Shown here one piece after another: positions 3,716 through 7,964 of a stretch of DNA of 33,724 nucleotides. Positions within the stretch are counted from its first letter, which is position 1; each line of letters begins with the position of its first letter. Both the position numbers and the translations under genes were made by a program. The notes below the pieces were generated by a model. It searched no databases and was not told the DNA's origin. It saw only the letters and a program-made list of their open reading frames with translations. The stretch comes from Coriobacteriales bacterium (lineage in GTDB: Bacteria > Actinomycetota > Coriobacteriia > Coriobacteriales > UBA8131), in assembly GCA_031279835.1 (NCBI GenBank), contig JAITHV010000037.1:1-33724 (forward strand). The letters run 5' to 3'.

Positions 3716-4903
3716 CTATTGCACCACGTTGTTCAATGCGACGTTCTCGCCGTCTTTTTCTGTAGGGGGAAGGCCTGCGTCGACGCGGGCCATCATGGCG
3801 TCAAACGCCGGCACGTCGATGGCCACGTATGAGACTTCGTCATGATAGTTGGGATACGACGGGACCGTGTCGAGGTACATGCTGTCGGCGCTCATTCCTT
3901 GCAGGCGCAGCAGCAAGTCGATGGCCTCGGTCGCCTCAAGGTCGGTCCCGACGCATTCGGCCAACGACGAGACCAGGCCGGGCATGTCGATGATGGAGGC
4001 CGAGAGCACGCGCTTGGCGACTGCCTGCATGAGCAGTCGCTGGTTGACGACGCGCTGAAAGTCGCCCATCGGGTAGTTCCTGCAGCGGCTGAAGACGAGC
4101 GCCTGTCGTCCGTCGAGCGTCTGTGTTCCCGGATCAAGGTGAATGCCCTCGAAATCGACCGTCACCGGCACCTTGACCGACACCCCGCCAAGCCTGTCGA
4201 CCAGCGAGACGACGCCGTTGAAGTCCACTTCCACATAATGGGCGATGTCGACGTCGCAGAGCTTCGAGACGACTGCCACCGCGCCAGCAGCGCCGTCGTA
4301 GGCATAGGCGGCGTTGATCTTCTTCGTTCCATGGCCCTCGATCTGCACTTCGGTGTCGCGTGGTATGGAGAGTATGGTGACCTGCGGCTTGGACGGGTCG
4401 ATGCGGCACAGCATGAGCGAGTCGGAGTTCCCGGACGTGCCGCTCACGCGCGTGTCGGATCCCACGATGAGCACGTAGAAGGGCTCGTCGGTGCGCTCGG
4501 GCTTCACGAGCACCTTGTTGAGGCTCTCGAGATCGAAGGCGCCAAGGCTCGACGTGTGGATGGCATTATTTATCTGAGAGATAAAGACTGCTGCAGAGAT
4601 GCCGATGGCGGCGATAAGGCAGACCACCGCGCCGACTATCCATATTATCACCTTGGTGCGCAGGCGCATCCCCGTTCCGGCATGACCGCTCCGCTTGCGT
4701 GCGCGATCGCGAACCGACTCGGCCGACTCGTGCGCCCAAGGCGCAGACCCGTCGTCAACGAACACGCGATCGTCGTTTGGCCATTCCTGTTTTTGTTTGC
4801 TTGTTCGGTTGCTCAGACGCCCCTCAGGGCCTCTCGCCGAGCGGGCATCCCTCTTTGAGTAGCCGTTGCTCGCGTCGCTTGAGCCAGTTTTGTCCTTTCG
4901 CAT
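3716..4903 (-). CDS. LytR-CpsA-Psr (LCP) family cell-wall glycopolymer ligase
   Basis: 395 aa from ATG 4903. Cytoplasmic, charged N-terminus (1-82), one membrane helix (about 84-108), then an extracellular LCP domain (about 140-330). Conserved LCP signatures are FYVLIVGSDTR (D150, R152), LSIPRDTEV (R172, D173) and the arginine-rich SRCRN...GDFQRVVNQR block, which bind the lipid pyrophosphate. LCP enzymes transfer undecaprenyl-linked polymers such as teichoic acids, capsule or arabinogalactan onto peptidoglycan. The longer open frame to 5002 is unlikely: a TATACT box lies between that start and 4903, and the ATG at 4903 is 7 nt from it. Divergent from the restriction-modification module. Confidence 0.9.
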   Translation of the reverse strand: MRKDKTGSSDASNGYSKRDARSARGPEGRLSNRTSKQKQEWPNDDRVFVDDGSAPWAHESAESVRDRARKRSGHAGTGMRLRTKVIIWIVGAVVCLIAAIGISAAVFISQINNAIHTSSLGAFDLESLNKVLVKPERTDEPFYVLIVGSDTRVSGTSGNSDSLMLCRIDPSKPQVTILSIPRDTEVQIEGHGTKKINAAYAYDGAAGAVAVVSKLCDVDIAHYVEVDFNGVVSLVDRLGGVSVKVPVTVDFEGIHLDPGTQTLDGRQALVFSRCRNYPMGDFQRVVNQRLLMQAVAKRVLSASIIDMPGLVSSLAECVGTDLEATEAIDLLLRLQGMSADSMYLDTVPSYPNYHDEVSYVAIDVPAFDAMMARVDAGLPPTEKDGENVALNNVVQ

Positions 4904-4910
4904 GCATTCG

Positions 4911-4919
4911 AGTATAGCA
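4911..4919 (-). promoter_or_regulatory. Extended -10 promoter of the LCP gene, leaderless start
   Basis: On the minus strand TGCTATACT reads as an extended -10 (TGn-TATACT). The -10 box occupies 4911-4916 and the ATG lies 7 nt downstream at 4903, leaving no room for a 5' leader. No good -35 box is visible, as is usual for extended -10 promoters. Confidence 0.5.
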
Positions 4920-5052
4920 CAAGGCGCCATCCGCCCGTAAACAACGGTATATGCCCGTATACTGTTCGTTGACGCATGTCTTTGGCTTGTGCTCACGTGC
5001 AACGAGCCTACTCGAACGATCCAGTGCGTCTCCCTTTTGGATTAACATGCAG

Positions 5053-5079
5053 GGGATATCAGGCATGGGATATCAGGCA
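5053..5079 (+). repeat. Two direct copies of GGGATATCAGGCA upstream of the methyltransferase promoter
   Basis: The 13-bp sequence GGGATATCAGGCA occurs at 5053-5065 and again at 5067-5079, a 14-bp period, each containing the palindrome GATATC. CAGGG (5050-5054) and CCCTG (5080-5084) bracket the pair. They sit about 25-50 bp upstream of the TATACT box at 5105, the usual place for an operator. Confidence 0.7.
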
Positions 5080-5104
5080 CCCTGGGCTGCCGAAGGGTTT
5101 CAGG

Positions 5105-5110
5105 TATACT
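5105..5110 (+). promoter_or_regulatory. -10 box of the restriction-modification operon
   Basis: TATACT at 5105-5110. Transcription would begin near 5117, upstream of the ribosome site at 5136-5140, which supports the start at 5148 over the ATG at 5112. No convincing -35 box was found. Confidence 0.5.
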
Positions 5111-5147
5111 AATGGCAACACGCGCACTAATGCAGGAGATTGGGTAT

Positions 5148-6134
5148 ATGAGCAGGAACTTAGAACAGTCAGGCTTGCAGTCCATTGAGATATGCGCGGG
5201 AGCAGGCGGCCAGGCACTTGGACTGGAACAGGCAGGCTTTCGACATGCCGCGCTGGTAGAAATCGACCCGCATGCCTGCGCAACCTTGCGAGCCAATCGT
5301 CCACATTGGAATATCATCGAAGGCGATGTCAAGGCTTTCTCGGCCAAACCATATTATGCTATTGACTTGTTGGCCGGCGGAGTCCCTTGTCCGCCGTTTT
5401 CTGTTGCGGGCAAGCAGCTGGGAAAAGACGACGAGCGCGACCTGTTCCCCGATGCGATCAGGCTGGTGGGGGAATGCTGCCCGAAGGCAATAATGCTCGA
5501 GAACGTCAGAGGTCTCTTTTTTAAGAAATTCGACAGCTATCGTGCTGCCATCGTACAAGAACTGCACAAAATGGGCTATGCCTGCTTCTGGAACTTGGTA
5601 GAAGCCAACCAGTATGGAGTGCCGCAGCGGCGCACGCGAACAGTTCTTGTGGCATTAAAAAACGAATATGCTAACTTTTATACCTGGCCGCTTGGATCCG
5701 TTTCGCCACCACCCGACGTCGGTCAGCTGTTGTTCACAGAAATGCAAAAGCATGGTTGGGAGGGTGCCGCAGCCTGGGCGAAAAAGGCAGCGGGCATCGC
5801 TCCAACTATAGTCGGCGGCAGCAAAAAACACGGCGGTCCCGACCTCGGGCCAACAAGAGCCAGGCAGGCATGGGAAAAACTGGGCGTAGACGGCAGAGGG
5901 ATTGCTGATGACGCGCCAATGCCTGGGTTTGTGGGAGCCCCGCGGCTCACCGTTAAGATGGTGGGTCTTCTTCAGGGATTTCCGGCTGAATGGGAGTTTG
6001 CAGGGAAGAAAACTGCGGCTTACAAGCAGGTGGGCAACGCGTTTCCGCCTCCTGTTGCGCGAGCCATTGCCGTGTCAATCCAAGAGGCTCTCTATAAGGG
6101 GGCGGCTCATGCAGTAGAAAAGAGAGCGGTATGA
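5148..6134 (+). CDS. DNA (cytosine-5) methyltransferase of a type II restriction-modification module
   Basis: 328 aa. C5-methyltransferase motifs in order: SAM-binding ICAGAGGQALGLEQAGF (motif I), motif IV GGVPCPPFS with the catalytic cysteine C81, ENVRG (motif VI, E118), QYGVPQRRTR (motif VIII), a target-recognition stretch with GGSKKHGGPDLGPTRAR, and KQVGNAFPPPVARAI (motif X). Methylates C5 of cytosine in a target I cannot deduce. ATG 5148 follows AGGAG at 5136 with good spacing; the upstream ATG 5112 lies only 1 nt after the -10 box. Its stop overlaps the HNH nuclease start (ATGA at 6131-6134). Base composition is clearly lower in GC than the flanking genes, suggesting horizontal acquisition. 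The gene appears intact. Confidence 0.93.
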   Translation: MSRNLEQSGLQSIEICAGAGGQALGLEQAGFRHAALVEIDPHACATLRANRPHWNIIEGDVKAFSAKPYYAIDLLAGGVPCPPFSVAGKQLGKDDERDLFPDAIRLVGECCPKAIMLENVRGLFFKKFDSYRAAIVQELHKMGYACFWNLVEANQYGVPQRRTRTVLVALKNEYANFYTWPLGSVSPPPDVGQLLFTEMQKHGWEGAAAWAKKAAGIAPTIVGGSKKHGGPDLGPTRARQAWEKLGVDGRGIADDAPMPGFVGAPRLTVKMVGLLQGFPAEWEFAGKKTAAYKQVGNAFPPPVARAIAVSIQEALYKGAAHAVEKRAV

Positions 6135-6712
6135 GTAACGGTGCGCGAAGCAAACTGCGCTACTTCTTTCTTGACCATATTGGTGAAATTTTGAACGCAA
6201 AGGAACTTCAAGAAGCATCGGGCGGCACAAGTGAGTGGGCACGGCGGATTTGAGAATTGCGGAATGAAGAAGGTTATCAGATTCTCACTCATAATGATCG
6301 CTCAGATTTGAAACCTGGGCAGTATATTCTTGTCAGCGAGTCGCCAAAGCCTTCGTCTGTACGAAACATTAGCAAGGAGAACAGGGCTTTTGTGCTTGAC
6401 AGAGATGGTTTTACGTGTCAAATGTGTGGGGCTGTTGCAGGCGAACCACATCCGTATGACCCAAGCAGGAAAACGCGCCTTCATATAGGGCATATAATCG
6501 ACAAGAGCATGGGTGGCACCGATGCGACGTCGAATCTTCGTGCGTTGTGCAGCATATGTAATGAAGGTGCAGCGAACCTGACTCTTGACAGGCCATCACG
6601 AGAAAAGCTATTAGTTCAGGTCAGAAGAGCAACTAGCTCAGACCAGATTGAGGTCCTGAAATGGCTATGCCGTAAGTTTCCTGACGTAGCAAAAACCATA
6701 CTGAATGAGTGA
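6131..6712 (+). pseudogene. HNH endonuclease (cognate restriction enzyme), interrupted by an in-frame TGA
   Basis: Translation from ATG 6131 (ATGA overlap with the methyltransferase) gives 40 residues ending WARRI, then TGA at 6251-6253, then in the same frame ELRNEEGYQILTHNDRSDL and a complete HNH domain. The HNH part has a zinc pair C-Q-M-C and a second C-S-I-C, with HIGHIIDKSMGGTDATSNLRA as the nuclease core. The sequence across the stop reads naturally as RRI-R-ELRNEEGY, so a CGA arginine codon turned into TGA by one C-to-T change is the simplest reading. The full protein would be 193 aa. Restart at TTG 6257, 4 nt past the stop, is conceivable and would give the HNH domain alone (151 aa). 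More AT-rich than the chromosome average. Confidence 0.85.
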
Positions 6713-6929
6713 CATTACGTAAACACAGGCGACCCTATGCGGGGCGACACAGCCAGGCGTTATGACAAAAATGTACCGTAACCGTTATGGATTCTTTATG
6801 TGTTTAACACCCTTGGCGCACTCACGCCTTTGAACATTGCGCTATACTAAAAGTCGTACATCGTCTGTTTGGGGTTTTCAGTTTTTGAGTTAGATGCAGT
6901 GTGCGCCGTCGCACTGGGGAGGTACCAAC
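6713..6929 (+). promoter_or_regulatory. AT-rich intergenic region with -10 box upstream of the WYL regulator
   Basis: No gene recognised in 6713-6893. TATACT at 6843-6848 is the best -10 candidate; no good -35 box. A strong ribosome site GGGGAGG (6916-6922) lies 7 nt before ATG 6930 and decides the start against the in-frame ATG at 6894. An imperfect inverted motif CCGTAAC/CGTTATGG is seen near 6775-6790. Confidence 0.45.
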
Positions 6930-7964
6930 ATGAATGACAGCCAGCCTAAAAAAATGATGCCTATCAACATCCTGAGAATACTCCAGGAGCGCACTGACGC
7001 CGAGCACACGCTGAGCGCAAAAGACATCATGGACATCCTTGAGTCCGACTATCAGATGATCGTGGACCGCAAAAGCGTCAAGCGCAATTTGGTGAGCCTT
7101 GTTGAGGAAGGCTTCAACATCGCCTACACCACAACGGTGCGCACCGGCAAAGAGGGCACAAGCGAGATCTACTCGAACTGGTATTACGTGCACGAGTTCG
7201 AGCCGAGCGAGCTACGACTGCTCATCGACAGCATCTCTTTGTCCCATCACATCCCGCCCAAGCAGTCCCGCGACCTTGTGGACAAGCTCAAGCGGCTTTC
7301 AAACCGCTACTTCTCGCCGCACGTCAAGCATGTCGCGAGCCTTCCCGAAAAGGGCATCGTCAACAAGGAGCTGCTCTTCATCATCGAGGTGCTCGACTCC
7401 GCGATCAGGACAAAGCGGCGCGTCGCCTGCAACTACGGCACCTACGACACCGACAAGAAGCTCAAGCCGCGCCTGGGCCCCGACGGCAAGCCGAAGCGCT
7501 ACCTGCTCAACCCCTACCAGCTCGCCTCTACGAACGGGCGCTACTACCTGGTCTGCAACAACACCGAGCACGAAGGTCTCATGAACCTGCGCGTGGACCG
7601 CATTATGCGCATCGAGCCGCTCGATGAGCCGGCGACGCCGCTTTCTAAACTCGACGGCCAGCACGGCGAGCTCGACCTCGCCCGGCATGTTTCCGAACAT
7701 ATATACATGTTCTCTGACACCGTCGAGGACGTGCGCATCCGCGTCGCCCGCGAGGACCTCATGCACGTGTTCGACTGGTTCGGCACCGACGTGAGGATCA
7801 TTGCGCAGACGGACAAGGACGCAGACGTCTTGCTGCGCGCCGATGTGACTGCAATACAGCATTGGGCGCTGCAGTTTTGCAAGCATGTTGAGATACTCGA
7901 GCCTGCCTCGCTGCGCAAGCAGATGCAGGCGACTGCCCAGGAGCTGGTCGCGCGCTACCAATGA
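6930..7964 (+). CDS. WYL-domain transcriptional regulator
   Basis: 344 aa. An N-terminal winged helix (about residues 10-75, with ILRILQERTDAEHTLSAKDI and the recognition-like RKSVKRNLVSLVEEGF) is followed by a WYL domain (about 145-240: RRVACNYGTYD, then KRYLLNPYQLASTNGRYYLVC and LRVDRIMRIE) and a WCX-like C-terminal domain (about 255-340). WYL proteins bind nucleic acid or nucleotide ligands and act as regulators, some of them controlling phage-defence genes. It lies just downstream of the restriction-modification module, in the same direction, but has its own promoter region and returns to high GC, so the link may be only positional. A long hairpin follows. Confidence 0.85.
   Translation: MNDSQPKKMMPINILRILQERTDAEHTLSAKDIMDILESDYQMIVDRKSVKRNLVSLVEEGFNIAYTTTVRTGKEGTSEIYSNWYYVHEFEPSELRLLIDSISLSHHIPPKQSRDLVDKLKRLSNRYFSPHVKHVASLPEKGIVNKELLFIIEVLDSAIRTKRRVACNYGTYDTDKKLKPRLGPDGKPKRYLLNPYQLASTNGRYYLVCNNTEHEGLMNLRVDRIMRIEPLDEPATPLSKLDGQHGELDLARHVSEHIYMFSDTVEDVRIRVAREDLMHVFDWFGTDVRIIAQTDKDADVLLRADVTAIQHWALQFCKHVEILEPASLRKQMQATAQELVARYQ

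Follow-up and report, generated by a model that had tools for sequence, protein, structure and literature searches.

The methyltransferase-nuclease locus

The window referred to here is the whole stretch of DNA that was analysed: 33,724 nt of contig JAITHV010000037.1 (assembly GCA_031279835.1) from a Coriobacteriales bacterium (UBA8131, class Coriobacteriia) whose genome is represented by 2.02 Mb in 134 contigs and is 91% complete. It contains an intact gene for a C5-cytosine DNA methyltransferase, followed directly by a broken gene for an HNH nuclease. The features of the locus are as follows.

5148..6134, + strand: C5-cytosine DNA methyltransferase, intact, M.NgoMIV/M.NgoAIV-like, predicted to modify GCCGGC (Pfam, identity, motifs)
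6131..6712, + strand: broken gene for an HNH restriction nuclease, with 193 residues and a single internal stop (frame, Pfam, relatives)
6236..6268, + strand: stretch encoding helix 3 of the N-terminal winged-helix domain, the predicted recognition helix, with the stop inside (AlphaFold2 model of the relative L004, alignment register)
6251..6253, + strand: in-frame TGA stop; the residue here is Arg in 93 of 94 relatives (frame and alignment)
6257..6712, + strand: possible restart ORF from a TTG, 151 aa, with GGCGGA (6243-6248) in front; no relative starts here (ORF reading)
6416..6565, + strand: HNH catalytic/zinc core, CxxC...CxxC, intact in sequence (PF01844; residues 96-145 of the read-through frame)

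The end of the methyltransferase gene and the start of the nuclease gene overlap in an ATGA, by which translation of the nuclease is probably coupled to that of the methyltransferase. The longest methyltransferase reading frame could begin as early as the ATG at 5112; since homology begins at about residue 22, the ATG at 5148 is the likelier start. The G+C content is about 0.62 in the flanks and 0.47-0.59 over the pair, which is consistent with an origin elsewhere and acquisition. No direct repeats marking an inserted island were found within 4850-7050, and an empty site was not located because the neighbours of the pair are non-syntenic across the family genomes compared. Directly downstream of the pair, at 6894-7964, lies the gene for a WYL-domain regulator; matches at E <= 1e-40 were found in just 9 of the 33 family genomes, so it may belong to a variable region.

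A single stop codon in the nuclease frame

When read through, the nuclease frame runs from MSNGARSKLR to SEWARRI, meets the TGA at codon 41 of 194, and continues from ELRNEEGYQ to ILNE and its terminal stop. This TGA is the sole internal stop, and there are no frameshifts. The initial annotation had described a restriction nuclease killed by one stop while its methyltransferase survives, with the HNH core intact downstream, and both descriptions hold: Pfam recognises HNH families only, PF01844 at 34.5 bits (cut-off 21.4) and PF14279 at 33.2 bits (cut-off 27.5), and the HNH motif with its paired CxxC is present. The window copy of the nuclease is the only one in the 91%-complete genome. Because the TGA breaks the nuclease frame, the locus is a degraded, non-working member of the type II restriction-modification (R-M) systems.

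Relatives were gathered in a scan of one genome per species, which gave 347 stretches, the best 80 of which were kept and joined by 17 viral loci; the query was the C-terminal 151 residues of the nuclease, so lesions in that part of the protein are under-counted. Nuclease and methyltransferase lie side by side in about 90 of these loci, spread over many phyla, and both genes are intact and adjacent in 83 of the 96 loci scored, as in a conserved cognate pair. Judged by this conservation, the gene pair is real and beyond chance. At the position of the stop the aligned relatives (from the best 80 of 347 and the 17 viral loci) have Arg in all cases but one, which has Gln; none carries a stop at codon 41, and no intact one starts downstream of it. 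The case named in the initial annotation as refuting its reading, homologues that share the stop and use a separate downstream start, did not arise among these relatives, the intact ones starting upstream. The segment before the stop is conserved (SEWARRVRELRNEEGYQ...), the pre-stop part aligns to the relatives as well as the post-stop part does, beside the same methyltransferase. In an alignment of 26 sequences, with identities as low as 51%, column R40 does not vary. As first proposed, the TGA would most simply have arisen from an Arg codon by a C-to-T change.

Two minor observations were made among the relatives. In L033 (1478-3912) a transposase ORF and ambiguous bases surround a methyltransferase fragment and an intact HNH nuclease, an arrangement that may be an assembly gap. 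The HNH protein of E. coli phage Louie was rejected as another pair, there being no methyltransferase beside it.

Age of the lesion

The view that the frame has no other lesion stands for stops and frameshifts but not for substitutions. The nuclease is changed at 2 of 64 near-invariant positions (F76S and N92D; the median of the relatives is 0), has 8 states unseen in any relative (median 1), and is on average less identical to its clade than any other member (73.9%). The ratio of the nuclease terminal branch to that of the methyltransferase is 1.01 for the window and 0.51 overall, or about twice as high; it is 0.10 for L010, which also has a stop. These values suggest that the nuclease is under mild relaxation, part of which may be ordinary variation, N92D being conservative. 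The mutation had also been called recent, which the single lesion favours and the mild relaxation qualifies: the loss of the nuclease is probably fairly recent yet not brand new, since a gene long free of constraint would have diverged far more. Given that relaxation is only mild, some residual nuclease function may remain.

What the stop would remove

An AlphaFold2 model was made of the intact relative L004 and registered to the window by alignment. Its N-terminal domain is predicted to be a winged helix, with helices at residues 5-15, 23-30 and 35-45 and a wing strand at 63-66; the pLDDT block means are 83-97 over residues 1-70, and the HNH part is less confident. The third helix is the recognition helix of the winged-helix fold, and the window stop falls in the middle of helix 35-45 of the model, inside the predicted DNA-recognition helix. 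Restriction would be lost because the nuclease ends within this helix.

A fold search with the whole model against the PDB gave no significant match. The match of highest probability was to part of NaeI (1ev7; E 0.35, probability 0.97), an enzyme that also recognises GCCGGC; NaeI was not found by profile search, and since winged helices are common the fold match can serve only as a lead.

The methyltransferase, its predicted target and its partners

The methyltransferase is full length. It matches DNA_methylase (PF00145, 3.1e-67), and the motifs PCPP, ENV, QYGVPQRR and QVGNAFPPPVA can be read directly. Its identity is 62.7% to a Neisseria gonorrhoeae protein and 61.0% to a methyltransferase that adjoins an NgoMIV-family nuclease on plasmid pLM16A1; plasmid pGT2 of Acidithiobacillus ferriphilus has the HNH arrangement, with an intact nuclease. 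The best PADLOC model is DruM2 (3.7e-143), and a reading of the window ORFs revealed no Druantia partner genes.

In a survey of 400 genomes of the class, the methyltransferase was present in 18, the window's included. Among the other 17, the partner was an intact HNH nuclease in 2 and an NgoMIV-type nuclease in 13; one genome (G029) had a decayed joined pair and one had neither nuclease adjacent. The NgoMIV-type assignment rests on a Pfam scan for 4 of the 13 (PF09015, 383-406 bits) and on common sequence blocks for the other 9; one class-mate nuclease matches NgoMIV itself (PDB 1fiu) at E 1.7e-121. The window nuclease carries HNH families alone and no NgoMIV domain, and PF09015 had no match in the window genome, a search in which the control genomes were silent too. 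Two further arrangements were seen. Arthrobacter phage Soondubu (L122; 1645-2445 and 2516-3475) encodes a methyltransferase of 59% identity and, upstream of it, an HNH protein that is longer and more distantly related, a third arrangement; and in L112 (G132 C88) a distant member of the methyltransferase family lies beside a Vsr gene and a helicase-like ORF, with no nuclease of either kind.

In a quick tree of 107 methyltransferases, made without bootstrap, 4-5 changes of partner type are required, and well-supported (starred) branches force no fewer than 3 of them. No column of the target-recognition region separates the HNH-paired from the NgoMIV-paired methyltransferases, and the block APTxVGGSKKHGGxDLGPxRA is common to both sets. 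NgoMIV cuts G/CCGGC (PMC4081073), and methylation of GCCGGC has been reported for M.NgoAIV (PMC12871193). The simplest reading of these comparisons is that GCCGGC is the predicted target of the window pair: the methyltransferase family, with the window's member in it, would modify this site, and the HNH nuclease would cut there. We consider it likely, from the sequence comparisons, that the winged-helix/HNH nucleases are GCCGGC-specific enzymes of an unrelated fold that have repeatedly been swapped with NgoMIV under a fixed methylation target.

The genome has 1683 GCCGGC sites against 1359 for the reversed control, which is within the family's range and not clearly depleted; the site counts therefore give no independent indication that GCCGGC was once restricted, and site avoidance was set aside as an uninformative test of specificity. 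Self-inflicted deamination at the system's own methylated site is not supported as the source of the stop, which is not in a GCCGGC context; the parallel stop in L010 has yet another context.

Decay in relatives and elsewhere in the genome

Damage to the pair takes several forms. In L010, from a Propionibacteriaceae MAG, the same helix is interrupted by a stop at the Trp codon, and the methyltransferase is intact; L054 has lost the N-terminus of the nuclease; in L097, a viral contig, the nuclease is interrupted by an apparent transposase reading frame; and L017 has frameshifts. In G029, from the window's own family, the methyltransferase contains a stop, and a deletion has joined it to the nuclease.

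Other R-M genes are present in the same genome. On contig C116 (L136) a C5-methyltransferase, starting from about 1500, has an internal TGA, the stop lying at locus position 2209, and the Eco29kI-family nuclease after it (230.7 bits) has an internal TAG; since this pair is also broken, R-M decay is not confined to the window locus. On contig C62 (L133) a C5-methyltransferase and a HaeIII-family nuclease (350 bits), at 501-1472 and 1547-2458, are apparently intact. A gene for a Vsr mismatch endonuclease lies on contig C42 (L132, 1438-1902); the 3.2-kb locus around it shows no adjacent C5-methyltransferase.

Discussion

The reading that best accounts for these data, to which we assign a probability of about 0.87, is that a type II pair with the predicted target GCCGGC was acquired horizontally and that a nonsense mutation then ended its nuclease. 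The pair would have consisted of a C5-methyltransferase and a small nuclease with an N-terminal winged helix and a C-terminal HNH domain, probably translationally coupled. The mutation would end the nuclease after 40 residues, inside the predicted DNA-recognition helix, so that restriction is lost, and the intact methyltransferase would stay as a solitary modification enzyme, presumably still methylating about 1,700 GCCGGC sites.

An error of sequencing or assembly, or a minority allele in a population that has a working nuclease, could also put a stop in an otherwise intact frame, and the assembly is a single consensus in 134 contigs at 91% completeness. However, the residues unseen in relatives and the lengthened nuclease branch are as expected under weaker constraint, consensus errors are more usually indels than substitutions, and another R-M pair in the same genome is broken in both genes; we regard this explanation as improbable. 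Slightly less credit is given to reinitiation, by which the TTG at 6257 would yield an HNH protein of 151 residues that has kept cutting or nicking activity, perhaps at reduced specificity. This TTG does begin 4 nt after the stop ends, as initially noted, and opens a 151-codon ORF without the first 42 residues; a Shine-Dalgarno-like GGCGGA is found 8 nt upstream, and with its HNH core intact and the HNH domain alone recognised by Pfam, the catalytic part may be separable. Against this, the restart product would keep the HNH core but be without helices 1-2 and half of helix 3 in the predicted DNA-binding domain, and the GGCGGA consists simply of the codons of a conserved Arg-Arg; a working truncated enzyme, which the initial annotation had allowed for, is unlikely for both reasons. 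Further, the methyltransferase would give no protection against an unspecific restart nuclease. Since the product would be without its helix and no relative is built in this way, the data are best read as loss of the nuclease.

It is also conceivable that the TGA is read as an amino acid, through recoding or a changed genetic code, and the good homology that continues after it would fit. This was rejected: the relatives have Arg and neither Sec nor Trp, folding of the local RNA is no better than that of shuffled sequences (z 0.29), and stop usage is normal, 9 of the 23 window genes ending in TGA and none having another internal TGA in about 10,000 codons. We give it hardly any weight.

When an R-M system decays, the safe and expected order is for the nuclease to die while the methyltransferase lives on, and solitary methyltransferases are known to arise in this way; the window locus is ordinary gene decay, a well-known phenomenon. 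One genome here displays three stages of it: the apparently intact HaeIII-like pair, the half-dead window pair and the Eco29kI-like pair broken in both genes. The new elements are the target prediction and the exchange of partners. The comparison gives a probable target to a nuclease family that has hundreds of relatives in species-level genomes, and it points to a single methyltransferase lineage working with two unrelated nucleases.

Among known systems, NgoMIV/NgoAIV, a type II R-M system for GCCGGC, has the same methyltransferase family and target-recognition block as the window, and the same order, methyltransferase first and nuclease directly downstream; the window nuclease, in contrast, is an unrelated winged-helix/HNH protein and is broken. 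McrA (EcoKMcrA; 6ghc), which cuts modified DNA, shows weak similarity to the window nuclease (E 0.0039), in the HNH part only. The HNH system of Paracoccus DYTN-1 was rejected as an equivalent, its HNH protein (408-bp gene) being different and smaller and matched to an N4/N6 methyltransferase (PMC11473606). The Aeromonas prophage PhiO23A has an HNH nuclease and a C5-methyltransferase (ORF48/ORF49), and the methyltransferase blocks cleavage by PdiI (GCCGGC) (PMC5446998). By description these are the same gene types as the window pair; the listed order is nuclease first, whereas the window has the methyltransferase first, and the PhiO23A evidence covers methylation, not cutting. The wH-HNH nucleases, SruGXI and others, combine a winged helix and an HNH domain in one chain and have been studied as m6A-dependent enzymes (PMC11037411); again by description, they have the same domain pair as the window nuclease, whose family, however, adjoins its cognate C5-methyltransferase (83/96 loci).
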